64,000 nt of DNA. Origin: Solirubrobacteraceae bacterium. Its GTDB lineage: Bacteria > Actinomycetota > Thermoleophilia > Solirubrobacterales > Solirubrobacteraceae. The notes under the pieces are model-generated. The model saw only the letters and a list, made by a program, of their open reading frames with translations, did no database searches and was not told where the DNA came from. This document shows, in pieces, positions 39,222 to 59,046 of this stretch. A program made the translations under genes and the position numbers. Location of the stretch: NCBI GenBank assembly GCA_016463765.1, contig JAEMQS010000004.1, positions 1 to 64,000 of the forward strand, in the 5' to 3' direction. The stretch's first letter is position 1. Each line of letters starts with the position of its first letter.

Positions 39222-39295
39222 GGTGGGCGTAGCTCAGTTGGTAGAGCTCCTGGTTGTGGTCCAGGCGGTCGCGGGTTCAAGTCCCGTCGCTCACC
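39222..39295 (+). tRNA. tRNA-His (GUG anticodon), integration site
   Basis: Cloverleaf with acceptor GTGGGCG/CGCTCAC (one G-T pair), the extra G at -1 facing discriminator C, anticodon stem CCTGG/CCAGG and loop TTGTGGT with anticodon GTG. T-loop TTCAAGT. CCA not encoded. Its 3' half from the anticodon loop on is the attachment site of the element. Confidence 0.97.
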
Positions 39296-39299
39296 CCTC
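39254..39299 (+). repeat. attL: left copy of the 46-bp attachment repeat
   Basis: Identical over 46 bp to 53540-53585. It begins TTGTGGTCCAGG in the anticodon loop and ends CACCCCTC, so the tRNA is rebuilt after integration. Sequences beyond both ends differ. Confidence 0.95.
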
Positions 39300-39302
39300 G
39301 TG

Positions 39303-39324
39303 AAGGCCCGCTCCGGCGGGCCTT
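39303..39324. terminator. Terminator at the left end of element A
   Basis: Arms AAGGCCCGC and GCGGGCCTT with loop TCCG followed by T. It lies between tRNA-His and the integrase stop, so it can serve both strands; it is element-borne since it is inside attL. Confidence 0.8.
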
Positions 39325-39337
39325 TCGCGTTGAGGGA

Positions 39338-40609
39338 CTACCGCTGGGCCGCAGCCACGAGACCTTCCGCAGAGCCACTGGTGCCCGCTGGTGCCCATTC
39401 CTCGCCGTTGACGAGGGCCTTCAGGCGCTCGCGCTCGCCGTCCCGGCGGCTCATCTGGCGGGCGTAGATCCGCAGTGTGAGCGTGGGGTCGGTGTGCCCG
39501 AGCTGGCCGATCACGTACGCCGGGTCTTCGCCCAGGGCGACGAGGATCGAGGCGAACGTGCGCCTGAGGCTGTGAGGCGTCAGGCGTTCGGGCAGCGGTT
39601 CGGAGTTGCGCTTGGCCAGCCGCTCGTTGGCGTTCTTGACGGCGGGCTGGAGGATGCGGCGCCGGACGTTCGTCTCGGACTGCCGGCCTCCGGTGCCCGT
39701 GGCGAACACGAGCGCGCCACGCGGGACGTCGCCGAGGGTGGCCCGGTAGGCGGCCAGCTCGTCGCGCAGCGCGGGCAGCACGTTGACCACGCGAACCCCG
39801 GCGTCGGTCTTCGACTCGCGAACCGTGATCGTCCCGCGCGCCAGGTCGACGTCGCCCCACGTGAGGTCCAGCATCTCGCCGATGCGCAGGCCCGCATAGG
39901 CGAGCGTGGCCAGCAGCGCCCGGCGCTGACCCTTGCGCTCCCGGGCCGCCTTGTCGAGCGCCTGGGCGCCGTCGAGCAAGGCCCCGATGTGGTCGGCGCG
40001 GTCCAGCCAGGAACGGGTCGGCTTGTCGGCCGGGAGCCTGCGGCGCTTCCCCTTGGCGGGGTTGCGCTGAAGGTGGCCGTACTCGACCGCGGCTTCCAAG
40101 ACGCCCGAGAGCACGTCCAGCGTCTTGTTGATGGTCGTGTTCGACAGCCGACGAACCTCGCGCGCTTCGTCGCCCTCACCGAGCGTCTTCGTCTCGGCGG
40201 CCTTGCGGCGTGCGTATCGGTCGACCTCCTCGACGGTGATCTGGTCGACCCTCATGGCGGCGAAGTGCGCCAGCAGGTGCTCGGTCAGCGCCCACTCCAG
40301 GTACTCGATCGTCCTCGGCCGCAGCCCGGCAACCTTGCGACCCTCGAGCCACTCGGACGCGAAGACGTGGAACGTCGGGATCTCGACGGGCTCGGGTGGG
40401 GTTGAGGCGTCGGGCGGTGCCCACTGCCCGCGGCGCACGTCGGCCAGCACGTTGGCCAGCTCGATCTCGGCCAGGCGCTTGGTGCACCCGTCCGAGGAGT
40501 AGCCGACGTGCTGGAACCGGCGCTTACCGTGGGCGCGGAACCTGATCCCGTAGGAGGTGCCCCGCGAGGTGCGCTTCTCGACGACCGTGCCCGTGGCAGG
40601 TCTAGCCAT
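39338..40609 (-). CDS. int: Tyrosine integrase of element A
   Basis: 423 residues. An N-terminal AP2/SAM-like region (TSRGTSYGIRFRAHGKRRFQ) and core-binding domain precede the catalytic domain with Arg in YAGLRIGEMLDL, HSLRR in LTPHSLRRTFAS, His in LGHTDPT and the nucleophile Tyr in LRIYARQM. The gene ends 38 nt from attL, the normal arrangement for site-specific integration into a tRNA gene. ATG 40609 chosen at MARPATG; upstream in-frame sequence is Pro-rich and unlikely. Confidence 0.96.
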   Translation of the reverse strand: MARPATGTVVEKRTSRGTSYGIRFRAHGKRRFQHVGYSSDGCTKRLAEIELANVLADVRRGQWAPPDASTPPEPVEIPTFHVFASEWLEGRKVAGLRPRTIEYLEWALTEHLLAHFAAMRVDQITVEEVDRYARRKAAETKTLGEGDEAREVRRLSNTTINKTLDVLSGVLEAAVEYGHLQRNPAKGKRRRLPADKPTRSWLDRADHIGALLDGAQALDKAARERKGQRRALLATLAYAGLRIGEMLDLTWGDVDLARGTITVRESKTDAGVRVVNVLPALRDELAAYRATLGDVPRGALVFATGTGGRQSETNVRRRILQPAVKNANERLAKRNSEPLPERLTPHSLRRTFASILVALGEDPAYVIGQLGHTDPTLTLRIYARQMSRRDGERERLKALVNGEEWAPAGTSGSAEGLVAAAQR

Positions 40610-40770
40610 GATGCTCCCTTCGATCGCGGCGATCGGGCAGGGCCACGGCACGGGGAGCACGCACGGCGGGAGCCGGTAGCGTGCCGCGCGCGCCGGGGGC
40701 GTCTACCCCGTCGCCGGGCCCGGGGCGTTGGCGCGCCGCCGGGCCACTTTGTGCACTTGCACGCCGCACC

Positions 40771-41124
40771 CTACGCCGCCAGGCCCTTGATCGGCAACAG
40801 CGGTATGCCTTCGCGTGTCGTTGCCACGCGAGGGCGCCGGGCGACGACCCTCGGGGCGTGGGGAGGTGCCGCGCCGCGTCGCCGCATCGCCTCTTCGGCG
40901 CGGCTCAGGTCGAACCGCCAGGGAGCTTTCGGCGTGTCCGCGAGCTTGACGCCGCCGAGCTCGGCGGCGTGCTCGTAGACGAAGGCCGTCGACACGCTGA
41001 GGTGGCTGGCCAGTGCCTTGACGTCGACCAGGCCGCCGGCCCTTGACGGCTGGTGCTCTCGTTGAAGCGCGACAACGCGCCGAGCGATGGCCTCGATGTC
41101 GTCGGGGTGCAGGCGCGCGGTCAT
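40771..41124 (-). CDS. HTH protein, excisionase-like
   Basis: 117 residues. VDVKALASHLSVSTAFVYEHAAEL is the helix-turn-helix (seen as ALASHLSVSTAFVYEHAAEL), followed by a PWRFDLSRAEEAM wing, matching AlpA/excisionase-type DNA-binding proteins. Start at ATG 41124 overlaps the previous stop (ATGA). Position just before int fits a recombination directionality factor; transcriptional control is the alternative. Confidence 0.75.
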   Translation of the reverse strand: MTARLHPDDIEAIARRVVALQREHQPSRAGGLVDVKALASHLSVSTAFVYEHAAELGGVKLADTPKAPWRFDLSRAEEAMRRRGAAPPHAPRVVARRPRVATTREGIPLLPIKGLAA

Positions 41125-41978
41125 CGTCCGACCTCGCGTGCACCCGGTGCACAGGTCGCCGGCCATCCCCCGGGGAGGTAGAGCGGGGTGCCAGGACGCC
41201 CGTTCTCGCTCGGCCTCTCGCCGACCCGCTCCATGATGCCTGCGGTCACGAACCCACGGAGCAGCCGGTTGGCCTGGCTCTTGCTGACGCCGCACCAAGC
41301 GCCGAACTCACGAGCCGAGCACGCCAGCGGGCTGCCAGCGCGGACGCCAGCCCAACCCAAGCCGAACCAGAGAAAGAGCCCCTCGTACGCAAGCTGGACG
41401 GTCGATCGCGGGTCGGTGGGCGGTCCGACGAACGGGATGTCGACGGGGTCGAACAGTCCCGCCTCCCACAACAGCCGCTTCAGCCAGAGCGCCAGCAACG
41501 CATTCGACGCGCCACCGCGAGAGGCCGGTCGCGACTCATGCTTCCCGACAGCGATCGATCGGGCCGCCTCGCCGAGCGAGCACCAGTCCTCGTCGCCGTG
41601 GCAGCACACGTACCGCGGCTCGGCGCGTTCGTCGTCAACCACCGTCGCGATGCACGCTGGACCGTCGTGCCCGGGAAGTCGGCACGGGAAGTTGTTGCCG
41701 TACCCGTCGACCCCGAAGAACCTCTGGAGGGCACGCACCGCCACGTGGTCGATCTCGAGCCGGTTCCCGCAGTACTTGACCCGATGGTGGCCAGGAACTC
41801 GGTATCGGCCACCGAGGATGAGATGAGGTCCTGGGACAAGAGGAGCGACAAGCGGAGCCAAGTCATCGAGGGGTAGTGGCGACGAAGAACGGCGGAACGA
41901 CTCGTCGACGAGACGCAGTTCCGCTCCTCTAGTCGCTCCACTTGTCCCAACCCCGTGATTGGCGGGCTGGGCGCTCAT
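41121..41978 (-). CDS. Zinc-finger replication-like protein with C-terminal winged helix
   Basis: 285 residues. The middle part, CRLPGHDG then YVCCHGDEDWCSLGE (about 100-140), has the Cys/His pattern of a CHC2 primase-type zinc finger. The C-terminal 100 residues read as a winged helix (SAREFGAWCGVSKSQANRLL). There is no visible primase polymerase domain, so it may be a replication initiator or primase accessory. ATGA overlaps link it to both neighbours. Confidence 0.6.
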   Translation of the reverse strand: MSAQPANHGVGTSGATRGAELRLVDESFRRSSSPLPLDDLAPLVAPLVPGPHLILGGRYRVPGHHRVKYCGNRLEIDHVAVRALQRFFGVDGYGNNFPCRLPGHDGPACIATVVDDERAEPRYVCCHGDEDWCSLGEAARSIAVGKHESRPASRGGASNALLALWLKRLLWEAGLFDPVDIPFVGPPTDPRSTVQLAYEGLFLWFGLGWAGVRAGSPLACSAREFGAWCGVSKSQANRLLRGFVTAGIMERVGERPSENGRPGTPLYLPGGWPATCAPGAREVGR

Positions 41979-42340
41979 GAGAAATCACCCCATGGGTCGT
42001 ACGCCGTCTGTCGTCGGCCGACGTCACGTTGCGGCGCGGGCAGCGACAGAGCCTCAGTCGCCCGCGGTGTCGAGGGCGACACCCCGCTCGGTGCCGTGCT
42101 TTGCGCAGCGGGTTCGGCGACCAGAACGTAGACGGCCATCTGCGACCGCCTGGCCGACGAGTCGATCACGTAGCCGGATTGCCGCACCTCGTCGATGCGA
42201 GCCGGCAGGCGCAGAATCGGCCTCCCACCGTCGAACGTGTCCGGGCCAAGAAAGTCGGCCTGGGTGATTCCGGTGCGGCCCCGGATGCGGAGGGCGCGCA
42301 GGACGCGGTCTCGCTGCGAGGGACGTCGGTGCGCGGTCAT
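41975..42340 (-). CDS. Phage-type winged helix DNA-binding protein
   Basis: 121 residues from ATG 42340. RDRVLRALRIRGRTGITQADFLG and DGGRPILRLPARIDEVRQSGYVID follow the pattern of a small winged helix common in prophages (seen as GITQADFLGPDTFDGGRPI). It is coupled to both neighbours by ATGA overlaps. Probably a transcriptional regulator of the element. Confidence 0.7.
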   Translation of the reverse strand: MTAHRRPSQRDRVLRALRIRGRTGITQADFLGPDTFDGGRPILRLPARIDEVRQSGYVIDSSARRSQMAVYVLVAEPAAQSTAPSGVSPSTPRATEALSLPAPQRDVGRRQTAYDPWGDFS

Positions 42341-42966
42341 CGGCCGGCCCCCGCGCGCTCGCGGTCGATCACGGTGCCGCAAGGGAGCGTGACGAGGCGG
42401 TAGACGCGGTGCCCCTCACGTGCACCGAAATCGTCGATCACCCAGCCCTCGTGCCGAAGGGTCTGGACCATCTCGGCGACCGGCGGATCTCCTGGGCGCC
42501 AGCCGAACGGCGTGGTCATGCCCTGGGCGTCTCCGAGCGGAAACGCCGCGTGTCGGATCAGCCCGAGGCGAACGAACGGCAGCAGGTGGCGCCGTCGCTC
42601 GTCTGGGTGGGCTGGTGAGTCATCGTCGGAACTGGGGCCGGCGCGCGTGGCGCCGGTTCCCCGACGCGATGCGGGGCGTCCGCCTCTCGGGCCTCGACGC
42701 GGCCGGCCGCCGCCGTGCTGCTTGCGCGGACGGTAGCCACAGAGCTTGGTGACCGTGCGCATCTCGGCGACCCGCCAGGCGACAGTCAACGGCTGCTTCG
42801 GGGAGCGCCGGCCGGAGGCGTCTCGCACGGTGAATCGTCCGGTCGGCGTGACGTCGACCGTGGCTGCGGTGGTCGTTCCGAGGGAGCGGCGCGCGAGTTC
42901 CTGCGGCGTCGGCTCGTCGGGGTGCGGCTCGTAGAGCGACCGATCGCTCTGGGAAGGCTGCTTCAT
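42337..42966 (-). CDS. Element protein of unknown function, first gene of the coupled chain
   Basis: 209 residues: acidic, Pro-rich N-terminus (YEPHPDEPTPQELARRS), a basic low-complexity middle with RKQHGGGRPRRGPRGGRP, and a C-terminal segment PPVAEMVQTLRHEGWVIDDFG resembling the end of the downstream winged helix. Start ATG 42966 has GGAGG. The basic core suggests nucleic-acid binding. It opens a four-gene chain joined by ATGA overlaps. Confidence 0.6.
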   Translation of the reverse strand: MKQPSQSDRSLYEPHPDEPTPQELARRSLGTTTAATVDVTPTGRFTVRDASGRRSPKQPLTVAWRVAEMRTVTKLCGYRPRKQHGGGRPRRGPRGGRPASRRGTGATRAGPSSDDDSPAHPDERRRHLLPFVRLGLIRHAAFPLGDAQGMTTPFGWRPGDPPVAEMVQTLRHEGWVIDDFGAREGHRVYRLVTLPCGTVIDRERAGAGR

Positions 42967-43001
42967 GTCGTCCTCCGTGTCCTGCTCTTTGCTTGTCGAC
43001 G

Positions 43002-43007
43002 AAGCTA
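43002..43007 (-). promoter_or_regulatory. -10 box for the coupled chain of element A
   Basis: TAGCTT on the minus strand; the predicted leader of about 29 nt contains GGAGGAC before ATG 42966. Weak -35 candidates only. Confidence 0.35.
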
Positions 43008-43058
43008 ACTCGCCACCCGGACATTCAGTCAGGGACTGTGAACCAAAGTGCAGAAGCG

Positions 43059-43098
43059 CCGACGCCCGGCGCAACCGCATGGGTTGGCCGGGCGTCGG
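43059..43098. repeat. Long near-perfect hairpin between divergent element genes
   Basis: 12-bp arms (43059-43070 and 43087-43098) continue inward as CAACC/GGTTG around loop GCATG with one bulged G, giving a 17-bp stem. No gene ends here, so it is not an ordinary terminator. ACTGTG at 43035-43040 and CACAGT at 43139-43144 form an outer inverted pair around it. Confidence 0.55.
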
Positions 43099-43173
43099 TC
43101 GCAGCAAAGTCGATCGGAGGTCGACGTGCGCAGTCTTACACAGTTGCGTGACGCTACGCAGGTCTCGGGCATC

Positions 43174-43179
43174 TATGGT
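43174..43179 (+). promoter_or_regulatory. -10 box, leaderless gene at 43186
   Basis: TATGGT ends 6 nt before ATG 43186. Confidence 0.55.
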
Positions 43180-43185
43180 CGGGCC

Positions 43186-43539
43186 ATGCTGCGTGGTCTG
43201 CTCAAGGAGCATCCCGTGATGACGCTCGTACTCGCCGTGGCTCTCGTCGGCTCGGGCGCATGGCTCTACGGCGAACTTCGGGATCGCGAGCTGATCGATC
43301 GCTACTGCCGCTACGGAAGCGTCAGTGCCGCGCAGCTCGAGACGTGTCGTGAGCACGTACGCGCTGACGAGATCCGCGAGCGCGGCACCGTCGCCGCACG
43401 GTACGCCCGCGACGAGATCGACACCTGCGGTTCGCGCGCAGGTCGCTTCTGCGAGGGCCAGCGCGTCGGTACTCGATCCAGCCCCAGCAACGAGAGCGGG
43501 ATCTTCTCTGACGACAGCGGGGTGTTCGCCGACCCGTAG
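43186..43539 (+). CDS. Single-pass membrane protein with Cys residues and GIF/GVF tail
   Basis: 117 residues: one membrane helix (about 11-29), a charged helical part with several Cys (RYCRYGS, ETCREH, DTCGSR, RFCEGQ) and the C-terminus SGIFSDDSGVFADP. The G-I/V-F repeats also end the 1541-residue protein encoded next door on the other strand. Leaderless start. Function unknown; the Cys may form disulfides outside the cell. Confidence 0.65.
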   Translation: MLRGLLKEHPVMTLVLAVALVGSGAWLYGELRDRELIDRYCRYGSVSAAQLETCREHVRADEIRERGTVAARYARDEIDTCGSRAGRFCEGQRVGTRSSPSNESGIFSDDSGVFADP

Positions 43540-43607
43540 CGAGGCCGTGTACGCCCTCAGTACGCCCGCTGCGGCCGAACCGTGCCCACGGGGAGGTCGC
43601 GCCCGCG

Positions 43608-43931
43608 CTAAGCGGGAGAGGGCGCGCAGCGGCGGCCGAGCTGCCAGCCTGCGAGAAGGCACTGCAAGAGCAGCGGTGTGACCTCGTCAAGGAACTCGAT
43701 GCGAGCGTCTCCCAGGCGGCCGAGGTCCAGGAAGCTCTCGGCGCGGAGGTTGTCCGCGAGCGTTGCGACCGCGATGGCCAGGAAGTCGCCGTCGACCCCG
43801 ATGCGCGAAGCGGCCCGATGTACCCCGTCGAGCGGGATGCTGCCGGCACCGGAGTCCGACCACTCCTCCAGCAGCGCGGTGGCTTCGTCGAAGGCCCTCC
43901 ACACGTCGTCCATCCGCAGTTCTGCTGCCAT
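43608..43931 (-). CDS. Hypothetical protein coupled to the giant gene
   Basis: 107 residues, mostly helical and acidic, no recognised motif. Its ATG overlaps the stop of the 1541-residue gene (ATGA), so the two are made together; it may be a chaperone or partner of that protein. Confidence 0.65.
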   Translation of the reverse strand: MAAELRMDDVWRAFDEATALLEEWSDSGAGSIPLDGVHRAASRIGVDGDFLAIAVATLADNLRAESFLDLGRLGDARIEFLDEVTPLLLQCLLAGWQLGRRCAPSPA

Positions 43932-46900
43932 CAGTCGAACACCCCTCCGCCGGTCGTTGAGCTTCCCGATTGCGCACTCGTCGTGCCGAAGATCCCGTCG
44001 CCACCGCCGCCACCGAAGACGCCTCCACGCGCGCTCGCCGACCGAGGCCGCCGCCGACGTCCGCGTCGAAGCCCTGCGCGAGTCTCGATCCGGGCGATCT
44101 GTGCACGCAGGCGGTCGCCCTCGGCGGTGCCGCCCTCACCGCGGGATTGCAGCGCCCGCAATGCGACCTTGGCCGCATCGAGCTCCGGGTAGTCGGTGAC
44201 CTGCTGGACGCGAGCCATCGACTGAGAGTCGGTGAGTCGCAGCGGCGTGGTCAGCGCGTGGGCGAACCGGCCCGCGGAACCATCGGGGCGGCCGTCCTGG
44301 AAGCGATCGACGCGCGCACGCTCGGCCCGCGAGATGGGGCGCAGGGGACGGTCGCCGAGAAGCGGGAGGCTGTCGCTGCCCTGCATTTCCGGGCCGCTGA
44401 GGGCGTCGTCCGCGGCACGGAGGGCGGGGCTGAGCCGCAGCGTGTCTCGCGTGACGATGCGGGCGCCCTCGTCGAGCCCGATCTGCGGGTCGGCGCCGAA
44501 CGCGGTGAACACGCCGTTGGTGTTGAGCTTCGCACCGCGCTCCGTCTCCCCGAGCAGCGTCGTCAGCAGTGAGCCAAGGATCGGACTCAGCAGGCCGAGG
44601 CTGCCCGAGCGCGGATCGCTGAACAGGTCGAAGATCGGCGAGGTCAGCGGCGACGCCCTGCCGACGTCGAAGTACCCGAGCTGACCGTCGCGCTCGAAGT
44701 AGACGCGGCCGCCGAACTGGCTCAGCAGCTCGCGCCGGATCGCCCGCTCGACCTCGTCGCGGGTGTAGCCACTGCGGTTCTCCTTGAGGAACCGTGAGGA
44801 CAGCAGGTCGACGACCTCGTCGTTCTGCATCTGCGCGACCTGGCGGACGATGTTGGCGGCCACCGGGTGCTTGACGGGGAGCGTGTATAGCGCGAGCTTC
44901 GTCGCGAAGCGCATGAAGCCGTAGAACAGGAGGAACGAGCGCCCCAGCCGACGCTCGGTGACCGTGTAGCGCGTCCAGTTGCCGAGCATGTCGTCGACGT
45001 GCTCCGCGTATCGCGCGATCTGCGGCTCGAGCTCGCGCAGCCGTGCGCGCTTGGCGTCACCGGCCGGCATCGCCAGAGCGTCGGCCAACTCTTGGGCCTC
45101 GGCGACCGCACCGTTGAACGGCCGGTGAAGGTCGCGCTCCAGGCGGCCGAAGAACGCGTTGCGACGGAAGTAGTCGTTCTGGCGCTGGTCCAGCTTGCGG
45201 TTCCAGGTCAGCGGGTTCAGGCGGCTCTCGCGCGCCCCGTTGACGGCATCGCTGTCGACGAACGACTGGTAGAAGCCGGCGAGCTTGTTGTCCGTCGCCG
45301 CGCCGAAGTGCGGTGAACGCGTGAGGTCGCTGAGCGGCGCGCTGCCGAGGAACTCGTCGACCATCGCGAGCGTCTCGGCGTCCGCGCCTTCGGCCTCGAT
45401 CTTCTTGCGCCAGCGCCGGTAGGGAGCGGTGGCGACGCGGCCCCTGGAGCCCGGCAGGCTGAGCACCACGTTCGAGGCGACCTGGATCGGGACGAAGACC
45501 GGCGACGTGTTGAGGATCGCCGCGGACGTGATGCCCTGAGCCTTCTGTAGTCCGCGACGCAGCGCACTGCCGGGGGTCGTCGCGGCACGCAACTCGTCGC
45601 TCACCGCGCGCGGGACGACTACGAACGTGGGACCGCCCTGGACGAACACGCTCGGAGTCCCATCGAGGGTCACGGTCGCGCGCTGGAGCGCCTCATGAAT
45701 CGCCGGATCGTCGACGCCTCCCTCGCCAGCGCGTGCCGACTGAGCGTCTCGGTCGGGTGCTGCGCGGCGGATGATGTTGAGGTCAACGACGTGCCAGTCG
45801 TCCGGGTTCAGCCCCTCGCGGTTGATGTAGTCGTGGGCCTGCCGGAGCGTGAGGCCGCGCGCGTCGGCCGGGCTCGACGACTCCAGGATGTCGGTGACCG
45901 TGTTCCAGTTCACCGTGCGCTTGATCGTGCGGAGCAGGCCGCCGTCGTAGGCCCCGGGCGTGGTGTCGTAGCGGCCCTCGTCGAACAGTCGGTAGCGAGT
46001 GGCTTTCGGGCCGGCGATCGCCCGGCTTCCGCCAGGGGCGTGGTCGCTGTGCCGCTCGCGGCCTGAGGGTCGGTGCTCGACGTAGACCGGGGTCTGTAGG
46101 CCAAGGCGCGCGGCTGCGTCCTGGGTGCGCTGAAGGAACGCCTCCCCGGCCTCGGTGGCGAGCCGGTCTGCTTCGGCCTCGGTGATGTCCCCGTCTGCGG
46201 TTCGCGCCTCAATGCGAGCGATGTCCTGCTCGAAGCGGCGATGCTCTCCGAGGGTGCGCCCAACCGGCATCCAGCGGCGCATCTCGGCTCGATGGCCGCC
46301 GAGCCCCGTCTCATCGCCGTCGAGGATGCGGGCGTCGCGCGCGACCTGCTTGTCGGCGAAGTCACTGACCGCCCCGAGGGCCTGCATCAGCGTGTCGTCG
46401 TCGTGGGCGAGGATGCGGTCGAGACGTGCCAGCTCGTCGGCGTCGCGTCCCGGCGTCTGGCCCTTGCCGCGGTCACGTCGCGCGGTCGCCTTCTGGGTCT
46501 CGTGGGTCGCCTCGGCCTCGCGCAGGCGAGCCGCGGTCGCCTTGACCCTGCGCTGGGCGCTGGCCAGCGCCTCGGCGGCGTCGCTGGCGCCCTTCGCGCC
46601 CGCTGCGTACGCGCCTTCCGTGCGTGCTCGCGCGTTGCCCGCCCGCTGCGCGTCGCGTTCGGCAGCCACGCCGCCGACGTTGCGCGACAGCACTTCAGCG
46701 CGGCCCTGGGCGACATCGACCGCGGTGCGCTTCTGCTTCAGGTCGCGACGCGCGGCGTTGTGGCGCCGTCGGGCCTGAGCAACGGTCTTCGCGCTGCCCT
46801 GTACGTCGCTGCCCTCCGGCAACCGGTTGACCTCCACCTGGTCGCGGCGAAGCTGCAACACCTCGCGAGTCGTCGCGACATCGCGGGAGGTCAGCGCCTG

Positions 46901-50685: not shown

Positions 50686-51321
50686 GCCGTGGACGATGGC
50701 GGCCCGGCCGGACGCGCCTTACACGTGCTGGCTGGCGCGCGTGGCGCAAGGAGTCGCGGGCGAGGCCGCCCTGAGTACCCAGCCGCCGGGTCGCACCGTG
50801 TCTCGCGCGGGCGTGGGTCGGCGACCAACGGCCGAGGATACGCCCGCTCTGGGCGACGGGCAGGACCGCCCGCTTGGGCTCTGGGCGTGAACAGGAGATC
50901 ACCCGAGATGAGGTTGCGGCACATCCCGTCGCGCGGCGCGGACCGTCAGGCGCCGTTGGGCGTCAGCGCGGATGGGACCGCCTGCTGCATCCTGTGAGAG
51001 CATCCGCCGATAGCTGACAGGGCTACCCGAACCGAGGCGAGCCGCATCGCTCGCGAGCGAGCCGCAGTGAATCCGTCCGGCATCGGTGCCGCGTGCGTCG
51101 GCGTCGCTGCCCGACAACCGAACCAGTAGCCGACACCCGCGCGCGTTGGGCTCGCTCGCGCGCGGAGATGCCGCACTGGCAGACGGTCGGCATTGGCTCC
51201 GGACACCCATAGCCAGGGGACGGGTCGCGGCTTGGCGCGCAACCTCGCCTGTGCCTCGCGCGCGAGAACCGACCGCACCAACCGCCGGAAGCCTGGCCGC
51301 TGGTTGGCCGAGGGCTGCCGT
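50686..51321. other. 636-bp stretch without a convincing gene
   Basis: Open frames here are rich in Arg/Ala/Pro and lack a start signal or domain. A 12-bp palindrome CGCTCGCGAGCG lies at 51048-51059, but such GC palindromes are common in this DNA. Confidence 0.5.
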
Positions 51322-51657
51322 TCAGATTCGGTGCAGCGAAGATGCGTCGATCATCTGCGCGGCATTGAGCGCGGTCAGAAGATCCACGTACCTCTTTCGT
51401 GCCCCACTCAGTTGCGCCGGCATCTCGTTCCCGAGGTGAACGGTTACCGTCAGCCAGTCCGGCGCGTCGGTCCACGTAGTGCTGTCGGCGACCTTCTTGT
51501 CTGCGAGCTGCCATGTCGCGGTTTGGCCGCCAAGGTTGATGTTGAGGGCGACCAGCGCACGAGCGTCGTAGTCGTCTTCCGGCGGGTCGCCGCCGTACAC
51601 GACGAGGACATCGTGTCGCCCCAACTGTCGGATTCCGTGCTCTTCGATGTAGGCCAT
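51322..51657 (-). CDS. Hypothetical element protein
   Basis: 111 residues from ATG 51657: MAYIEEHGIRQLGRHDVLVV, then acidic DPPEDDYDARAL, DAPDWLTVTVHLGNEMP and a helical end. Alternating beta and helix pattern, no family known. Lower GC than neighbours. It precedes the divergent cargo unit. Confidence 0.55.
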   Translation of the reverse strand: MAYIEEHGIRQLGRHDVLVVYGGDPPEDDYDARALVALNINLGGQTATWQLADKKVADSTTWTDAPDWLTVTVHLGNEMPAQLSGARKRYVDLLTALNAAQMIDASSLHRI

Positions 51658-51800
51658 CGATACGGAACGTTCGATTGCACCGTCGTTTCTCCTCCAGGGC
51701 CCGACGGCGTGCGAGGCTCTGGGCTCGACTACGCGATGCTTGCGAACGTGCCACACAGGATCTGCGCACCCCGTCGCACCGCCGCCTCTGGTAGCGCACG

Positions 51801-51806
51801 TAGACT
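51801..51806 (+). promoter_or_regulatory. -10 box, leaderless cargo gene
   Basis: TAGACT ends 6 nt before GTG 51813. Confidence 0.55.
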
Positions 51807-51812
51807 GGCAGC

Positions 51813-52385
51813 GTGGATACTCCGAGACATGGCGATGTGGTGCAGCTCGTGACGGACACGCCCTCGGAGGATGTGCACGACGCGGCGGAGCATTCGCGAG
51901 CCGTGGCCGAGGCGATGCGGCATCTGGCGGATCAGCAGTACGACCGCGCGGAGCGGCTGCGGGCTGCTGCCAGGCAGACCTTCTTGTGGGTGTCGGCCCT
52001 TTTCACCGTGACGCAAGTCGTCGCGCTCTCTGCATTCGGAGAGGACAAGATCACCCCAGGCGAGCAGCAGTCGCTCATGTGGATCGCCATTGTCGGTGCC
52101 AGCTTCCTCCTGGTGACGTTGCTCCTGACGATCGGCACGGACCGCCTGCGAAAGGTCGCCGACATTGCGCCCGATGATCTCGTGAGGGCGGCCGACGACG
52201 CAGTCGAGTCCGGGGACCACTTCGGCGACGCGCTCGTCGCCATGTACCACCTGACGGCCACTCGGCGAGCAGAGGCGGTCAAGGAGCGACGCGAGTGGCT
52301 CTATTCGGTTACGGTCTTCGCAGCGATCACGGTCACCGTATTGGTCGGCGAGATCGTCTACGCGCTCATCATTCGCCTCCACTAG
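51813..52385 (+). CDS. Three-helix membrane protein of the cargo unit
   Basis: 190 residues: amphipathic cytosolic N-terminus with AEAMRHLADQQYDRAERLRA, helices at about 57-76 and 88-107, a cytosolic stretch, and a third helix at about 164-187. The layout resembles 2TM/3TM effector domains such as SLATT, but no signature is certain. GTG start is leaderless. It is 13 nt before the next gene and the two run opposite to most element genes, next to attR, where accessory genes usually sit. Confidence 0.65.
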   Translation: MDTPRHGDVVQLVTDTPSEDVHDAAEHSRAVAEAMRHLADQQYDRAERLRAAARQTFLWVSALFTVTQVVALSAFGEDKITPGEQQSLMWIAIVGASFLLVTLLLTIGTDRLRKVADIAPDDLVRAADDAVESGDHFGDALVAMYHLTATRRAEAVKERREWLYSVTVFAAITVTVLVGEIVYALIIRLH

Positions 52386-52398
52386 GGGTCTCACTGCC

Positions 52399-53400
52399 TT
52401 GACAGACCAAGACGCTGCGGCGCCGGCAAGTGCCGACGACGCTGACGCTGACGAAGTTGCCACGGATGCGGTTGAGCCACCTCCGCGCAGAGGGACGGCG
52501 AAGCGTCGCAAGCTCGGCGGGGTAATCGAGAAGTACCGCAACGTCACCGGTACGACCGACATGATGGTGACCCATGATCAGCGGTACGCGGAGCGACTGC
52601 TGCTCCAAGGCGAGGGGCTGACCGACCGAGGCGGACCTGCCGATGTGGTGCTGGACCTGGTGCGCGACTGGGTCAGGGCGATCAAGGCCGTAAACCCGGG
52701 CGCCAACCCGGTCCTGGAGCGGCTGGTCCCGACCAGCTCGATGGAGATCGTCCTCCATCCGCCCGATGAGGAGATCGTCGATGCCGGGCGCCGGCAGGCG
52801 TACTTCGAGGACACCGATTCCCTCGACGTCGCCTTGCCCGAAACGACCCTTGCGATCGCCGCGATCACGACCGTTCTGACCGCGGAGCCGGAAGCTGGCG
52901 CTGAGGCCGCGAGGACGATCGGTGTCACCGCGGCCGATGCTATTCGCGACCTCGCAGCGGACCTGGCTGACAGGGAGATCGAGGCGACCATTGGGCTCGG
53001 CAGTGATAGCGCGACCAAGATCGAGCCCGAGCATCTGTTGCGGGTGGTGGAGCAGCTCGACGCCACGTCCGAGCTCCCACCGGTGACCGTGACGGTGGTG
53101 GGAGTCCTCAACGGCGCGAACTCGCGTGGCGACGGCCAGTTCGAGATCGAGACCGACGCTCAGGTGCAGCTCGACCCGGCGTTCGGGCGCCGCAAGAAGG
53201 CCGGCGATGTTGTGCAGGGGGCATTGACGCCAAAGGCGCGCCGCGAGATCCGCAAGGACAACCTTTGGGACCGCCACGTCGAGGCTCGCGTGCAACTGGT
53301 TCGGCGACAGCGAGGCCCCAAAAGCACTCGTATCGAGAGCGTGCGCCTGATGTCGGTATCCCCGCGGCCGGGCTACTCCTCGGAAGAGCTCGAGGATTAG
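52399..53400 (+). CDS. Soluble partner protein of the cargo unit
   Basis: 333 residues from a TTG start. Acidic N-terminus, a basic patch RRGTAKRRK (about 30-38), a helical middle, and a C-terminal beta-rich domain (VTVTVVGVLNGAN ... LWDRHVEARVQLV). I do not recognise it. Terminated by a hairpin before attR. With the membrane protein it looks like a self-contained two-gene system, possibly defence or toxin-immunity. Confidence 0.65.
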   Translation: MTDQDAAAPASADDADADEVATDAVEPPPRRGTAKRRKLGGVIEKYRNVTGTTDMMVTHDQRYAERLLLQGEGLTDRGGPADVVLDLVRDWVRAIKAVNPGANPVLERLVPTSSMEIVLHPPDEEIVDAGRRQAYFEDTDSLDVALPETTLAIAAITTVLTAEPEAGAEAARTIGVTAADAIRDLAADLADREIEATIGLGSDSATKIEPEHLLRVVEQLDATSELPPVTVTVVGVLNGANSRGDGQFEIETDAQVQLDPAFGRRKKAGDVVQGALTPKARREIRKDNLWDRHVEARVQLVRRQRGPKSTRIESVRLMSVSPRPGYSSEELED

Positions 53401-53485
53401 GCGGGCACCAGTGCCAGAACTCGGCTGAAACGAGCCGAAATCGACCCAACGCACCGTCGGGTTTGAACCGCGCGCTTCGGTCGCC

Positions 53486-53517
53486 AACCCCCGGAATCAG
53501 TGATGATCCCGGGGGTT
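53486..53517 (+). terminator. Terminator of the cargo unit
   Basis: 14-bp stem with one mismatch (53486-53499 and 53504-53517), loop GTGA, followed by TT. Confidence 0.75.
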
Positions 53518-53539
53518 GCCTCTCGTTTCGGCACCACGC

Positions 53540-53585
53540 TTGTGGTCCAGGCGGTCGCGGGTTCAAGTCCCGTCGCTCACCCCTC
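53540..53585 (+). repeat. attR of element A / left att site of element B
   Basis: Second identical copy of the 46-bp repeat. It is only the tRNA 3' half and lacks the 5' half, so no functional tRNA is here. An integrase gene begins its neighbour region on the right side. Confidence 0.95.
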
Positions 53586-53615
53586 AAGAAGCCCCCGGAA
53601 CCCCGGGGGCTTCTT
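53586..53615 (+). terminator. Original terminator of tRNA-His, displaced by integration
   Basis: 13-bp stem AAGAAGCCCCCGG/CCGGGGGCTTCTT with loop AACC and following TCGTTC, directly at the end of the att repeat. Before integration of A it would have followed the tRNA gene. Confidence 0.8.
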
Positions 53616-53688
53616 TCGTTCTGGGGTCCGGTGTGATAGCCGAGGGTCCCGAATGAACTAACTCTCACCTAACGCCAGCGGAGGGGAA

Positions 53689-54912
53689 TCAGGCGGCATC
53701 GGCGTCTGCGGGGCGCAGCGGATGAGCCTTCCTCGCGGCGCGGATCTCCTTTGCGGCGTCGATTTTCGGCTTGCCCTCGTACATGTCAATCAGGTGTCCG
53801 TAGGTGCGAAGCGTCTGCTCGGCGCCGTGCCCGAGCTGCGATGCGACGTAGTGGATCGTGTGGCCTTCGGCGAGCAGCAGCGACGCGAACGTGTGCCGCA
53901 GGTCGTACGGCCGCGAGTGTGGGAGCTTGGCGATCTTGAGCCCCGGGAGCCAATGGCGATTGCGCCAGTTGTCCCAGTCGGACTTCCTCCAGGGGTTGCC
54001 GTCTGCCGGAGGGAAGATCCAGCGCTCGGTCGACTTCGGGCAGGTCTTCTGCCACGACTTGAGGTCAGCCGCGAGCGGCGTGAGGAATCGCACCACGCGG
54101 CTTGGGCCGGTCTTGGTGCTCTTGATCGCCCCGCCGGTCAGGTCGCATGCGCGGGAGACGAGCAGCGTCTTGTCATGCACGTCGTCCCAGCGCAGGGCCA
54201 GCGCTTCGGCAGGGCGAAGGCCGGAGTAGGCGAGCACGGAGACCAGAGCCAGGTCTCGCTCGCGGACGGCCTGCGGGAGTCGCTCGATGGTGTAGGACTT
54301 CCGCGCACGCTGCCCAGGCTTGGACCCGGCGACGATGGTCGGTGTGGCGGAGGCGATCGCGACGCGAAGCCGCTCCACCTCGTACGGCGACCATGCCCGA
54401 ACGGGTTCGGAGTGTGCGCGGCGCTTGGGACGCACTGCGCGAGCGGCGTTGTACTCCAGCTCGCCGAGTTCGCAGGCGTAGGCGAGGATCCCGCCGAGCA
54501 GGGAGTGGGCCTCGCGCAGCGCCTTGGTGCCCGCGCCGGCGCGCTCGCGCTCGGTGCGCCACTGGGCGACGAGCGGGGCCGTGATCTCCCGCAGCGGGAC
54601 GTCATTGAACGTGTCCTCCAGGTGGGCGCTCCAGAGGTTCGCGTACGTCCGGCGGGTGGCGCTCGCCAGGTCAGCCGTCCGTTCGGGCGACCAGGTCTCG
54701 GCGACGAATGTGCCGAGCGTGCGCGAGCTGTTCAGGGTGTGCAGCGTTCCGAGCTGCTTGCGGCGCTTGACTTCGGCTTCCCACTGCTCGGCGTCGCCCT
54801 TGCGGTCGAAGCTGCGCGTCCGCTGGCGGCCGTGTACGCGCCAGTGGACTTCCCACTTGACGCTCGGCTTGCCGGTGCGCTTGCTGATTCGTTGAATGCG
54901 GTGGATCGACAT
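53689..54912 (-). CDS. int: Tyrosine integrase of element B
   Basis: 407 residues. Basic AP2-like N-terminus (WEVHWRVHGRQRTRSFDRKGDAEQW), core-binding domain, and catalytic Arg in YSGLRPAEAL, LRHTFAS, LGHGAEQTLRTYGH with the nucleophile Tyr. Shine-Dalgarno GGAGGACG before ATG. It differs clearly from the integrase of A yet targets, by position, the same site. Confidence 0.96.
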   Translation of the reverse strand: MSIHRIQRISKRTGKPSVKWEVHWRVHGRQRTRSFDRKGDAEQWEAEVKRRKQLGTLHTLNSSRTLGTFVAETWSPERTADLASATRRTYANLWSAHLEDTFNDVPLREITAPLVAQWRTERERAGAGTKALREAHSLLGGILAYACELGELEYNAARAVRPKRRAHSEPVRAWSPYEVERLRVAIASATPTIVAGSKPGQRARKSYTIERLPQAVRERDLALVSVLAYSGLRPAEALALRWDDVHDKTLLVSRACDLTGGAIKSTKTGPSRVVRFLTPLAADLKSWQKTCPKSTERWIFPPADGNPWRKSDWDNWRNRHWLPGLKIAKLPHSRPYDLRHTFASLLLAEGHTIHYVASQLGHGAEQTLRTYGHLIDMYEGKPKIDAAKEIRAARKAHPLRPADADAA

Positions 54913-54999
54913 GGGGACGTCCTCCGGTGGGTCGGATGTGCTGAGCGGATGCGTGTTGGGCGCCGAGCGGGTGACGCGTCGGCGAAGAGCCGCGAGAGC

Positions 55000-55392
55000 C
55001 TAGGACGGCCGGCCGCCCGTGAGGATGGCCTGTGTCGCGCGGCTCGTTCTGGCCTTGGCTCGCCGGGCTCGACGGGTCGCCTGCGCGGGCGTGAGCGTTG
55101 CCAGCGGGCAGCCTCGGTCGCGCCACGCGTCGACGGCTGCCGGGGTGGTTTGCCAGCGGTTGCCGATCCGCTCACCTGTGAGCAGTCCGGCGTTCATGGC
55201 GCGCGCGACGCTCTTGGGGTGCATGCGGACGCGCTCGGCCACATCCTTCGTCGTGAGGTACTCGGGCGCGGCGCCCGGAAGGTACGGCGCGAGCGCGCGA
55301 GCGAACTCGGCGCCGAGCTTGGGGTCGCGCTGCAGCGCGTGGGCGAACTCGCTCAGCAACGCGGCTCCGAACGTACTGTCGCTGGTTGCCAT
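55000..55392 (-). CDS. Helix-turn-helix protein, excisionase-like
   Basis: 130 residues with YLTTKDVAERVRMHPKSVARAMNAG and NRWQTTPAAVDAWRDRG (MerR/excisionase-type fold, seen as TTKDVAERVRMHPKSVARAM). C-terminus is basic. It lies next to the integrase, as a directionality factor would. Confidence 0.8.
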   Translation of the reverse strand: MATSDSTFGAALLSEFAHALQRDPKLGAEFARALAPYLPGAAPEYLTTKDVAERVRMHPKSVARAMNAGLLTGERIGNRWQTTPAAVDAWRDRGCPLATLTPAQATRRARRAKARTSRATQAILTGGRPS

Positions 55393-55404
55393 CGCGGGGA
55401 TGCC

Positions 55405-55515
55405 TCAGCGCGTCTCGCTGGCTTCAGAGTGCAGCGCGGCGGCGACTTGCGCCGCCAGCGTGACGATGTTCCGGGAGCTTGGGCGAGTGGTGGGCTTGTC
55501 GAGTGTCGTGGGCAT
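55405..55515 (-). CDS. 36-residue hypothetical protein
   Basis: Short open frame just upstream of the HTH gene with an amphipathic helix at the end (RNIVTLAAQVAAALHSEASE). No ribosome site; it may be a leader peptide or not a gene. Confidence 0.25.
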   Translation of the reverse strand: MPTTLDKPTTRPSSRNIVTLAAQVAAALHSEASETR

Positions 55516-55826
55516 CGCGTTGTGGGTGTCGACACGGGCGGTCCGCTCTGCGAGGTGGTGGCCGCACGTGTGACATCTGCGCAGGCGCCACCAGCGGCAC
55601 GAGGGCGTTTCAGGTGCGCGGTGCCGCCGGACCGCAGCCGATTCCGCACGCCGAAGGCGTGCCAAGATCGCGGAGGTTCAGGCGGCCCGCGCACGTACGT
55701 GTCACGCCATCGATCCGGCCTGCACGGCGCCCGGCGCCGCGCCACGGGACCCGCGCTCAGCGGCCCGGTAGGCGGCCAGCAGGCTGGCCGCTGGTCTATG
55801 AGGGAGGGGCTGCGGTCCGGGCGCCG
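55516..55826. other. 311-bp stretch with nothing recognised
   Basis: Between the 36-codon frame and the antitoxin gene. Frames on both strands are Arg-rich and lack signals. Confidence 0.5.
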
Positions 55827-56054
55827 CTAGGCAGCGGCGCGGCGCAGCATGTCGGCGACGACTTCGCCGATGTCGCGTCCCTCGCGTGTGGCCCGGTCGC
55901 TGAGGTTCGACAGCGTGGCGGGGTCGACGGAGACCTCGATGATCGTCTCGATGTCGGCGCGTGGGGCGAGCCGCTGTCCGCCGGAGGGGTTCTCCTCGAT
56001 CAGGCGGTCGAGATCGTCGCTTGTCGGATCGTCGGGCATTGCTTCTCTCCTCAT
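55827..56054 (-). CDS. BrnA-like ribbon-helix-helix antitoxin
   Basis: 75 residues: acidic start, then IIEVSVDPATLSNLSDRATREGRDIGEVVADML, whose beta strand and two helices (seen as SVDPATLSNLSDRATREG and DIGEVVADML) match ribbon-helix-helix antitoxins. It follows the toxin-like gene by 9 nt, the gene order of brnTA. Expected to bind the toxin and repress the promoter at 56355. Confidence 0.7.
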   Translation of the reverse strand: MRREAMPDDPTSDDLDRLIEENPSGGQRLAPRADIETIIEVSVDPATLSNLSDRATREGRDIGEVVADMLRRAAA

Positions 56055-56063
56055 GATGAACGC

Positions 56064-56348
56064 TCAGCGCCTGGATTGGTAGTCGGCGATCTGGCGGTCG
56101 CTGGACTCCCATCCGGTCATCACGTGCCAGCGCGTGGGATCGGACTCGTCGGGCTGAAGCACAATCGTCAGGAATCTGGCGGCGCCGGTCGGGCCGATCG
56201 CGTAGATCGAGCCGGCCACGCGGGCGTGGGGGTTGTCACGGATAAGCGGCCCGTTCGCAATGACCTCTTCGACTTCTCCGGTCGTGACGTCCCGCGCCGC
56301 CAGCTTCGTGCGGGCGAGGACGTTGAACACGAGATGGAGGATCAGCAC
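56064..56348 (-). CDS. BrnT-like toxin (RelE fold)
   Basis: 94 residues. SLIRDNPHARVAGSIYAIGPTGAARFLTIVL and WHVMTGWESSDRQIADYQ fit the BrnT/DUF4258 pattern: Arg-x-x-Ile-Gly-x-Thr-x-x-Gly-Arg then Trp-x-Val, Ala/Ser and a final Tyr. BrnT-type toxins cleave RNA. Leaderless GTG with TACGTT 6 nt upstream. Confidence 0.65.
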   Translation of the reverse strand: MLILHLVFNVLARTKLAARDVTTGEVEEVIANGPLIRDNPHARVAGSIYAIGPTGAARFLTIVLQPDESDPTRWHVMTGWESSDRQIADYQSRR

Positions 56349-56354
56349 GGGGCG

Positions 56355-56360
56355 AACGTA
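56355..56360 (-). promoter_or_regulatory. -10 box of the toxin-antitoxin operon
   Basis: TACGTT on the minus strand, 6 nt before GTG 56348. Confidence 0.5.
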
Positions 56361-56426
56361 GACGCGGGACCGGACAAGCGCCAGGAGGTCGATGACACCG
56401 GTGGATGGGGCATGGCGGAGGCCACA

Positions 56427-56450
56427 CCCTCAGGGCTCGTTCCCTGAGGG
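56427..56450. terminator. Hairpin between SSB and toxin genes
   Basis: Arms CCCTCAGGG and CCCTGAGGG, 6-nt loop, 17 nt after the SSB stop. Confidence 0.6.
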
Positions 56451-56466
56451 CGTGATGGTGTCCGGT

Positions 56467-56820
56467 CTAGAAGGCGACCCCGTCGACTTCGGGCTCGCGG
56501 TCGCCAGCCTCACGCGGGGCGTTGAGGAACTCGATGTGCCCGACGACCGTGTGCTTGTTGCGCTTCGCGTCGCTGTCCTTGTCGGTCCACTCGTTGAACT
56601 CCAGGCGGCCTGCGACCCCGACCAGCCAGCCCTGCTTGAGAACCGTCGCGGCGGCCTCACCGCTGGCGCCGTAGCTCAGGACGTCGATGTAGCCGACCTC
56701 CTGCCCGCGGCCCATGCCGTCGACGGCGAGGCGCAGCTCGCAGACCTTCGTCTCGCCGCCCGGCAGGGAGCGGAGCTCGGGGTCCTTGGTGAGCCGGCCG
56801 GTGATGCTCATGCTGTTCAT
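56467..56820 (-). CDS. ssb: Single-stranded DNA-binding protein
   Basis: 117 residues, OB-fold: MSITGRLTKDPELRSLPGG, YIDVLSYGASGEAAATVLKQG, VGVAGRLEFNEWTDKD. It lacks the long acidic tail of housekeeping SSB, as mobile-element SSBs often do. ATG 56820 has AGGAG. Points to replication or transfer of element B. Confidence 0.92.
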   Translation of the reverse strand: MNSMSITGRLTKDPELRSLPGGETKVCELRLAVDGMGRGQEVGYIDVLSYGASGEAAATVLKQGWLVGVAGRLEFNEWTDKDSDAKRNKHTVVGHIEFLNAPREAGDREPEVDGVAF

Positions 56821-57031
56821 GGTGGTGCTCCTTGCCCGCTCTGGGGCGGTGGTTTGACCGACACCCCGAACGACCGGCCCGAGATCCGACGAGCGCGACA
56901 ACGCCGGACGCAGGAGCGGCTTGCGCGCCCGGAGGGCCGGGCCGACAATCAGGGGTGAAGGCGGACACGCCCCGACACGCGAGGTGTGCCCCTCTCACGT
57001 TCTGGTGGCCGCTATTGGAGAGGCCGCGCAC

Positions 57032-57541
57032 TTATCTCTGCGGGGTGAGGTAGGTCTCGATTCCCGCGCCGGCTGCGAGCAGCACCGCGATCGCGAGGCA
57101 GACGCGCCCGAGCGCGCCGATCGACGACCCGCGTCTCTGCGAGCACACGAGCAGCACGCATCCGCATCCGAGCGCGAGCATCTCGAGCGGCAGGTGTGGC
57201 AGGAACGGCAGCAGCCGTGTCCCGTAGGCGCCGCCTGCGGCGCCGATCAGCGCGACATTCGCGGCCACGACGACCGTGGTCACGCCGTTGGCGATCACTC
57301 GGGCAATCCAGCCCAGCGGCGCCATCAATGCCGCGAGCACGGGGACCATGCAGACGCGCAGGTTGTTCTGGAAGATTGACCATGCCACCGGGCCGGTGCC
57401 CGCGTGGCCGGCGAGCTCGAACCGCAATTCGTCACGTACGACCTCGGCCAACCCGGGCGCCGCCGCGACGAGGACCGCCGGGCCGAGGAGCGTCGTGCAG
57501 AGCGCGAGCGCGATGAGCGCCGTGGCGCGCGGGAGCGTCAT
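57032..57541 (-). CDS. SpoIIM-like membrane protein
   Basis: 169 residues with four to five membrane helices; the motif IFQNNLR (about 56-62) and LPHLPLEMLALG resemble the Asn-Asn and Pro-His-x-x-x-Glu motifs of the SpoIIM/DUF95 family. Not a sign of sporulation. Its ATG overlaps the stop of the ParA-like gene (ATGA), so the two act together. Confidence 0.7.
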   Translation of the reverse strand: MTLPRATALIALALCTTLLGPAVLVAAAPGLAEVVRDELRFELAGHAGTGPVAWSIFQNNLRVCMVPVLAALMAPLGWIARVIANGVTTVVVAANVALIGAAGGAYGTRLLPFLPHLPLEMLALGCGCVLLVCSQRRGSSIGALGRVCLAIAVLLAAGAGIETYLTPQR

Positions 57542-58266
57542 CGTAGGAGCTCCAGCAGGAGACCGTGCGCGAGCTCGCGGATCGGGGCGTTACCGGCGAG
57601 CCCGTGCAGCCGGCTGACAGAGACGGCGGGGGAGACGATCGACAGCAGCGGCGTCGCGTCGGGCCGCGCGGCGGCGTCGCCAGTGGGGTCGCAGAGCACG
57701 AGGCCTTGCGCCCGTACCGAGCGTGCCGCGGAGGCCGCTGGAGAGCTGAGCACGGCGGCGGCTACTCTCAGGTCACGCCGCGCGTCGGCCACCCAGATGA
57801 CGCGGTCGGCGAGCTCGGCGGCATCGAAGGCGGGGCTTCCGACACTCCCGGCGTCGATGACCGTGAGCGTCTGCTCGGCACGGGCCGCATCGAGCAGGTC
57901 GCGCAACGCCATGTCGATCGGTTCGGGCGCGGGGCATGCGGCTGGAGCGCAGACGGTTACCCCGTCGCGCGCGTACAGCGACCCGGCCGGGACGATCCCC
58001 CTCGCACGCGCGTCGGCGAGATCGGCCAGCGACACCCTGGTCTCTTGGCCTAAGTGCGCGGCAAGCCCGCCGACATGCCCCGCGTCTGCGAGGAACACCC
58101 GCCCATGGGCCAGCACAGCACGGGCCGAGGCGAGTTCAACGGCGACGGTGGTCGTCCCGGCTCCGCCGTGTAGCCCGCAGATCGCGACGACCGCCCCGTG
58201 TGTCTGCGCGCGGCCGGGGTGCGTGTGTGATTGACGAGCGGCGTCAGTCCCGCAGAGCGTCTCCAT
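57538..58266 (-). CDS. ParA/TadZ-like P-loop protein
   Basis: 242 residues. The nucleotide loop GLHGGAGTTT (about 30-39) matches the deviant GGxGxTT of CpaE/TadZ rather than the GGxGK of classical ParA. Asp in VFLADAGHVGG and VIDAGSV are the other motor motifs. Coupled to the SpoIIM-like gene. In Tad-like secretion loci such a pair accompanies CpaF, TadB and TadC, which are missing here. Confidence 0.75.
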   Translation of the reverse strand: METLCGTDAARQSHTHPGRAQTHGAVVAICGLHGGAGTTTVAVELASARAVLAHGRVFLADAGHVGGLAAHLGQETRVSLADLADARARGIVPAGSLYARDGVTVCAPAACPAPEPIDMALRDLLDAARAEQTLTVIDAGSVGSPAFDAAELADRVIWVADARRDLRVAAAVLSSPAASAARSVRAQGLVLCDPTGDAAARPDATPLLSIVSPAVSVSRLHGLAGNAPIRELAHGLLLELLR

Positions 58267-58705
58267 GCGGGTTGGTGGCCGCGCTCGCCGGTCTCGCGCA
58301 GATGTCGAAGACTGTCGTCGCGCGGCGGCCGTTCAAGGCGCGCGCCGTGGTGGGCGGAGCGTCCCGCGCGGAACGCTGGCCGCTACGAGGCTCGGTGGAA
58401 GTCGCCGTCGCAGTGCCGCCAGGCGCCGCGGCCCTTCGTCTTCGCGTCCTGGCGGCTGCCTGGTAGGCGGCGGTGCGGGTGAACGGTTTGCCGTCGTAGA
58501 CGTAGACGTCCGCCCATCCGCTCCCGACCATCTTGCGGTTGATGTCGCCGTCGGTGGAGACGTAGGCGACCATACGCCCGTTATCTGCTGCCATCAAACC
58601 ACGGATCTGGCCTGGCCCCGGGCGCGTGGCGGATCTTGCGTTGCGAACGGCGTTCGCAACGGTCTCGGTGTGCGGTAAGAAGCATGCTCGTGTGAGTTGG
58701 AGCAA
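58244..58705 (-). pseudogene. Truncated thermonuclease (SNase-type) fragment
   Basis: Residues 43-90 of this frame (about 58436-58579) read GRMVAYVSTDGDINRKMV, GSGWADVYVYDGKPFTRTAAY, the C-terminal half of an SNase domain. The N-terminal half with the catalytic Asp/Arg is absent upstream and the C-terminus is unrelated Arg/Ala-rich sequence. So probably a decayed gene. Confidence 0.5.
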
Positions 58706-59046
58706 GCAACGGCTGCTCTCGTGCGCCGACGTCGGCGGCTTCAGGCGGCGCTCGGAAGAGCGTGTCGATCTCTGGTATCGGGTCGTGCCTGCAAGAGACG
58801 CGGATGGACCTCGCCATAGCGTCCCGTAGCAATCGTGGCTAGGGGGTAGGTACCGATAGCGTTCGGGCGGCGGCTCGCCCGGGATTCGAGCCCCCGAGCG
58901 GGTGCGGACGTGGTTCCGTAGACGTGGCTTCGGCCCTTCAGGGTATCCGTCGCAGCATGATGGAAGCTGCCCCTACTAGTGCACCCGGAAGCTCCCTGTC
59001 CCTCAACGCAACAGGACCGGCGACACCGGGAACACGCCCTGCCAAC
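58706..59046. other. 341-bp boundary stretch
   Basis: No gene. It should contain the right end of element B, but there is no copy of the tRNA-His repeat. A T-arm-like string GGGATTCGAGCCCCCG at about 58886 is too short to be a tRNA. Confidence 0.4.

Follow-up and report, generated by a model that had tools for sequence, protein, structure and literature searches.

Evidence for tandem accretion of two integrative elements with unlike integrases at one tRNA-His gene of a Solirubrobacteraceae bacterium

The window, i.e., the whole stretch of DNA that was analysed, comprises bases 1-64000 of the 105,433-bp contig JAEMQS010000004.1 of a Solirubrobacteraceae bacterium (assembly GCA_016463765.1; 252 contigs, 89% complete); the remainder of the contig was also read. 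It contains an intact tRNA-His gene, a displaced second copy of the 3′ half of that gene and two genes for tyrosine integrases, which mark two putative integrative elements, A and B (Table 1). The repeats starting at 39254 and 53540 are identical over 46 bp and 95% identical over 56 bp; the identity of the 46-bp copies at 39254-39299 and 53540-53585, reported in an initial annotation of the locus, is confirmed by a repeat search. With at most three mismatches, the 24-bp core of this attachment (att) site occurs twice in the window (0 occurrences in 100 window shuffles) and no more often in the 4.57-Mb assembly as a whole. A third match is present in neither, and hence the assembly holds no circle junction. 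An integrase gene lies to the right of each repeat copy, both on the same strand, with the stop codons of integrases A and B situated 38 and 103 nt beyond their respective repeats; this part of the annotation is upheld, and both products match PF00589. The two integrases share 26% identity over 424 aligned positions and are clearly different, as had been claimed, but homologous.

Two other genomes of the same genus show this site in different states. In the complete genome G001, the tRNA-His gene is followed directly by the terminator now found at 53586 in the window and by integrase B (98% identical), which is the arrangement that the initial annotation had proposed to look for in relatives. 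The island in G001 is bounded by two 46/46 copies of the tRNA-His 3′ half, 58.7 kb apart, beyond which the chromosome matches the present contig from position 95069. In G002, the tRNA-His gene is identical at 42 of the 46 positions of the att stretch; a hairpin terminator comes after it and next, by eye, an NAD synthase gene, with the flanking genes of the present contig on both sides. Neither an integrase nor a second repeat was found at this gene in the stretch read, and no PF00589 gene is listed on that contig of G002. Neither G001 nor G002 shows a match to integrase A at 1e-30 or to a 504-aa piece of a giant protein encoded by A at 1e-3. The same tRNA-His gene is accordingly unoccupied in G002, singly occupied in G001 and doubly occupied in the present genome, which agrees with the earlier proposal of two separate elements in a row at one site. 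The contrary case named with that proposal, a single element always carrying both integrases, is contradicted by G001, which has B without A; the other one, a site of integrase B elsewhere, is likewise answered in favour of the tandem.

Table 1. Features of the tRNA-His locus (positions in the window; ORF, open reading frame; HTH, helix-turn-helix)
Feature	Positions	Strand	Evidence and remarks
tRNA-His gene, GTG anticodon, intact target gene	39223..39297	+	ARAGORN; sole tRNA-His in the window
att copy next to the tRNA, left att (attL) of A; tRNA-His 3′ half from the anticodon loop plus two bases	39254..39299	+	46/46 identical to 53540-53585
Element A, 14,286 bp between the starts of its two repeats	39254..53585		Single copy in the assembly
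Spacer with hairpin-like terminator (by eye), tRNA-His to integrase A	39300..39337		Beginning similar to what follows the right att (attR) in G001 and tRNA-His in G002
Integrase A, tyrosine recombinase, 440 aa	39338..40660	-	PF00589, 5e-20; phrog_1, 5e-58
Putative excisionase/HTH protein of A	40771..41124	-	Weak phrog_66 match, E 0.003
Unknown ORF of A, overlapping the putative excisionase	41121..41978	-	No Pfam/PHROGs match
Giant protein of A, 1403-1541 aa by start choice	43931..48556	-	No Pfam/PHROGs match; relatives near phage structural genes
Displaced tRNA-His 3′ half, attR of A and left att of B	53540..53585	+	Repeat search; in G001 the equivalent flank comes directly after tRNA-His
Element B, part within the window	53540..64000		Continues to contig position 93641; 40 kb in total here
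B-side spacer with terminator	53586..53688		Nearly identical in G001, there directly behind tRNA-His
Integrase B, tyrosine recombinase, 407 aa	53689..54912	-	PF00589, 8e-18; 98% identical in G001 beside tRNA-His
HTH_17 protein, putative excisionase of B (from its position)	55000..55392	-	PF12728, 1.4e-6
Left module of B: DUF4258 protein, SSB, SpoIIM-like (below cut-off), ParA-like (by eye, no Pfam match)	56064..58266	-	Block 97.7% identical to G001
4.4 kb of B missing from G001: MFS transporter, ArsR-type regulator, others	58367..62795		Alignment to G001 and Pfam

Comparison with G001 also defines the extent of B. The initial annotation had placed the right limit near 58.9 kb, giving a B of about 5 kb; instead, B measures 40 kb here (to 93641) and 58.7 kb in G001. 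The DNA from 62796 onwards aligns to the G001 island at ∼90%, and 58.9 kb proved to be the edge of the stretch missing from G001. G001 is taken to have lost that stretch by deletion, because the gene spanning the right edge of the stretch (62315-63736, 473 aa) is present there without its first 159 codons. Three long blocks of B are 97.7% (53540-58366), 89.8% (62796-84137) and 91.4% (84805-93641) identical to G001, compared with 70-88% for seven flanking chromosome blocks, four of which are at 81-82%. As B is more similar than its flanks, it has probably been transferred horizontally, as judged from sequence. The match to G001 stops at 93641, inside the gene of a transporter of the bile-acid-symporter family, of which codons 94-326 of 326 are kept at 98% identity. 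From 58 kb to the end of the contig the best candidate for a third att agrees at 26 of 46 positions, the same value as in a single shuffled control. The 23 kb that follow the break point in G001 give no blastn match in this contig, and 16.7 kb of them (12.1 + 4.6 kb), searched against the whole assembly, yield scattered short matches, the longest of 244 bp at 70%. Since synteny with G001 resumes in order at contig position 95069, the far end of B is read as a deletion and not as a contig error; B looks to have lost its right end, with the distal att, through a deletion that cut the transporter gene.

Very probably, two integrated elements have accreted in tandem at the 3′ end of a single tRNA-His gene. 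In this arrangement B would be the island that stands behind tRNA-His, as in G001, and A (14.3 kb), which lies between tRNA-His and B here, would use the same 46-bp core, so that the middle repeat closes A on its right and B on its left. Integrases A and B would both recombine at this core. With each element come a separate continuation for the tRNA and a terminator, and the tRNA gene thus stays whole. The right end of B, and with it the distal att, appears to have been deleted in this genome. Several hallmarks of islands are found in A, namely an intact tRNA gene at one end, a displaced 3′ fragment at the other, an integrase near one end, and an orthologous site in relatives without A. In all, the assembly holds two integrases and one displaced fragment only, and the array is therefore classed as an accretion whose second member is truncated. 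Only A retains two repeats, so that A is predicted to be still able to excise, and B and A+B to be unable to do so; circles of B and of A+B, which the initial annotation had envisaged, are not expected, no distal B repeat having been found. The hairpin on the A side may or may not be the ancestral chromosomal terminator, the A-side sequence, that after attR in G001 and that in G002 being alike.

The relatives of the two integrases are consistent with independent arrivals. Integrase A has relatives in 46 of 151 genomes at 1e-30, its own genome counted. In a collection of 43 integrase loci (relatives of A or B, together with A and B themselves), the integrase stop faces the 3′ end of a tRNA within 400 bp in 22 cases, involving nine kinds of tRNA. 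A tree of 42 of these integrases, one row under 300 aa having been dropped beforehand, places A and B in separate clades with 100/100 support, a split that is partly made by construction, as the sequences were gathered as relatives of A or of B. The closest relatives of either integrase in the tree face other tRNAs or no tRNA, and integrases A and B appear to have reached tRNA-His separately. Neither integrase has a match in the viral contigs searched, and the att core has none there either. Among 919 phage records none reaches 60% identity to integrase A (those listed are at 23-29%), and among 63 plasmid records none reaches 60% identity to integrase B (those listed are at 25-29%).

The tRNA-His gene itself looks like a repeated target within the order, to judge from the genomes compared. 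Displaced tRNA-His 3′ halves, scored as matches that start at query base 27-44 and reach base 82 or beyond, occur in at least 17 of 60 relatives among the matches listed, most of which were not inspected individually. An integrase-like ORF is present near tRNA-His (within a flank of at most 1.5 kb) in three of 30 loci read, several with flanks shortened by contig ends: the present genome, G001 and G054, where the match is weak and lies on the tRNA's own strand. A separate observation concerns G031, in which tRNA-His is followed by three displaced 3′-half copies on the same strand (C1:4147822-4172073 and 4075148), with no PF00589 integrase listed between 4147822 and tRNA-His. These copies may mark successive scars, or elements that use a different type of integrase.

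The sequence of events is less firm than the tandem arrangement itself. The layout tRNA-A-B can be reached in two ways, by integration of A into the left site of B or by integration of B into the right site of A. A is probably the later arrival, although the order is not settled; a late A is favoured because B is eroded while A keeps both repeats. The initial annotation had described A as the younger element, adjoining the intact tRNA; its position next to the tRNA stands, and its younger age is plausible from the same signs of erosion in B, with the reservation that the reverse order gives the same layout. That reverse order, in which A came first to tRNA-His and B was later inserted into the right repeat of A, is a possible but less likely alternative: the middle repeat might have served as the target of either integrase, so that the layout alone cannot tell, yet it is B that is truncated, with attR not found, as against the 46/46 repeats of A, and the sister species carries B without A. 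It is rather improbable that A and B arrived together, as a pre-stacked composite mobilised via its outermost repeats. Mobilisation in cis of stacked elements has been described (PMC5704250, PMC9513070), but no genome was found with A+B elsewhere, and the outer repeat of B is gone here. The region 39.3-59 kb (or up to 93.6 kb) could also be taken as one composite element that carries both integrases and moves as a unit, since the two integrases are encoded on one strand and share their att core. This was rejected on the evidence of G001, where B stands without A at the same site from att to att, and is very improbable for two further reasons: integrase A and the 504-aa giant-protein piece are unmatched in G001 and G002 at the thresholds used, and with the distal att of B not found, an A+B circle would be without a right end. 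That only A is an element, with the second repeat belonging to A alone and integrase B an old chromosomal remnant, agrees with the failure to find a third repeat in this assembly but is hardly tenable given the two perfect repeats around the integrase-B island of G001, the higher similarity of the long B blocks than of their flanks, and the G002 tRNA-His gene without integrase.

Several observations weigh against tandem accretion as set out above, or against parts of it. No second genome carrying A was found, and the limits of A therefore rest on its repeats alone. G002 may not be untouched and has its own history with such islands, as another contig of that genome (C15, L061:7672) carries a tRNA-His half (41/46) amid B-like cargo that is 69-79% identical. 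In 500-bp steps the identity of B to G001 ranges from 68 to 99%, with some steps at only 68-79%; B is therefore a mosaic and not the product of one recent transfer. Finally, the 1.4 kb at 93642-95068 are without counterpart in the G001 region, and an assembly error at 93.6-95.1 kb is conceivable, though unlikely. This stretch holds a gene for a MazE-like antitoxin and an ORF of 327 aa (94080-95063) with no match in 60 relatives.

About a third of element A is occupied by the giant protein. Relatives of its C-terminal part occur in two of 150 further genomes searched and, according to an alignment search, in five viral contigs. Used as sole query against the viral contigs, the 504-aa piece gives no match, and the giant protein has none in the phage records. 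Within about 4 kb of the relative in G005 lie genes with matches to virion structural, internal virion and minor tail families, and within 5 kb of that in viral contig L098 lie genes with matches to virion and tail families. The neighbours tested in G088 and L101 match no structural family, with only a helicase/primase match in G088. Members of the giant-protein family measure 1400-2456 aa (43931-48556; L098:4955-12325; L099:5675-12958) and belong to no PHROGs or Pfam family where tested. An AlphaFold prediction for 630 residues of the giant protein, based on five sequences, had a pLDDT (predicted local distance difference test) of 38.9 and was not used. Terminase, portal and capsid genes are absent among the ORFs of A that were compared (10 with Pfam, 10 with PHROGs); the small gene calls at 43186, 49588 and 50186 were in neither set. 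In the right part of A (48.6-53.4 kb) gene calls are few and weak; the scripted calls were made with a home-made codon-bias predictor instead of a standard gene finder. The neighbourhoods of the giant-protein relatives suggest that A is probably phage-derived. A bolder reading is doubtful: A would be a compact, still mobile, phage-derived and satellite-like element rather than a decayed prophage, with about a third of it given to one giant virion-type protein, and its insertion beside tRNA-His, together with the loss of the outer att of B, would have fixed a metal-handling island in the chromosome.

The cargo of B features metal and thiol-redox genes. It includes genes for a P-type ATPase (for copper, by context), a DUF305 protein, a cation-efflux protein, a multicopper oxidase and a DtxR-type regulator, as well as a CcdA/DsbD-like protein, VKOR, a DsbA-like thioredoxin, a SCO1-like protein and an M56-type peptidase. 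A Pfam scan of ORFs from A and B, which left out many of the smaller genes of B, found no conjugation or TraB-type transfer genes. Two related membrane-protein genes of ∼470 aa without Pfam match lie within B, at 62315-63736 and at contig positions 91352-92761; the product of the former is 34% identical to that of the G001 copy of the latter. In G001, the right half of the island encodes, among others, ParB-like and DUF4062 proteins, and it also contains a tyrosine-recombinase unit of three genes. This unit (C1:4104198-4106686) comprises two tyrosine recombinases and a DUF6262 protein, and its two recombinase genes recur with equal scores at C1:1284488-1286977, as for a mobile transposon; we take the unit to be Tn554-like.

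Three congeneric genomes with an empty, a singly and a doubly occupied version of the tRNA gene provide a clean comparative case, in which two distant integrase clades appear to have arrived at the same 46-bp target. They also point to a metal/redox island that probably moved between species via a tRNA gene and then became stuck through the loss of one att. A limited literature search found no description of a tRNA-gene element in Solirubrobacterales or of integrative elements in Solirubrobacter. That elements with unlike integrases can accrete in tandem at a single tRNA gene is itself an established principle, also in Streptomyces; the small merits of the present locus are the range of occupancy seen within one genus and that B has lost its outer site.

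Tandem tRNA-gene islands are built into the rules of Islander (PMC4383910); unlike the members of such arrays, B has an integrase while its own distal fragment was not found in this genome. The integrative and mobilizable element (IME) IME_Sag2603_tRNAlys adjoins a slightly decayed integrative and conjugative element (ICE), the att sites of the two being reportedly very different, and the neighbours of IMEs are termed "generally decayed elements" (PMC5704250). In contrast to that pair, the core is 46/46 identical here, and decay has removed the outer att. A cis-mobilizable element (CIME) is defined as one without integration and transfer genes that has kept attL and attR (PMC5704250), whereas B has kept its integrase ORF and its attR was not found. 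Closer parallels are the tandem actinomycete integrative and conjugative elements (AICEs) Sav3708/Sav3728 of S. avermitilis at tRNA-Arg, with integrases of different subfamilies, and Fean5518/Fean5534 of Frankia at tRNA-Lys, with closely related integrases and excision both singly and together (PMC3218068). Like these, A and B are two tandem elements in one tRNA gene of an actinobacterium; unlike them, they have no transfer genes among the ORFs scanned, and the outer att of B was not found. In a Streptomyces population, accretion at tRNA-Arg involves elements that share their specificity but have unlike integrases (reported identity 39-88%) and were inserted in succession, a remnant element among them (PMC9513070). 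Although that case concerns AICE-type elements in other bacteria and at another tRNA, it shares with the present locus the succession of elements at the same site, the unlike integrases and a decayed member.

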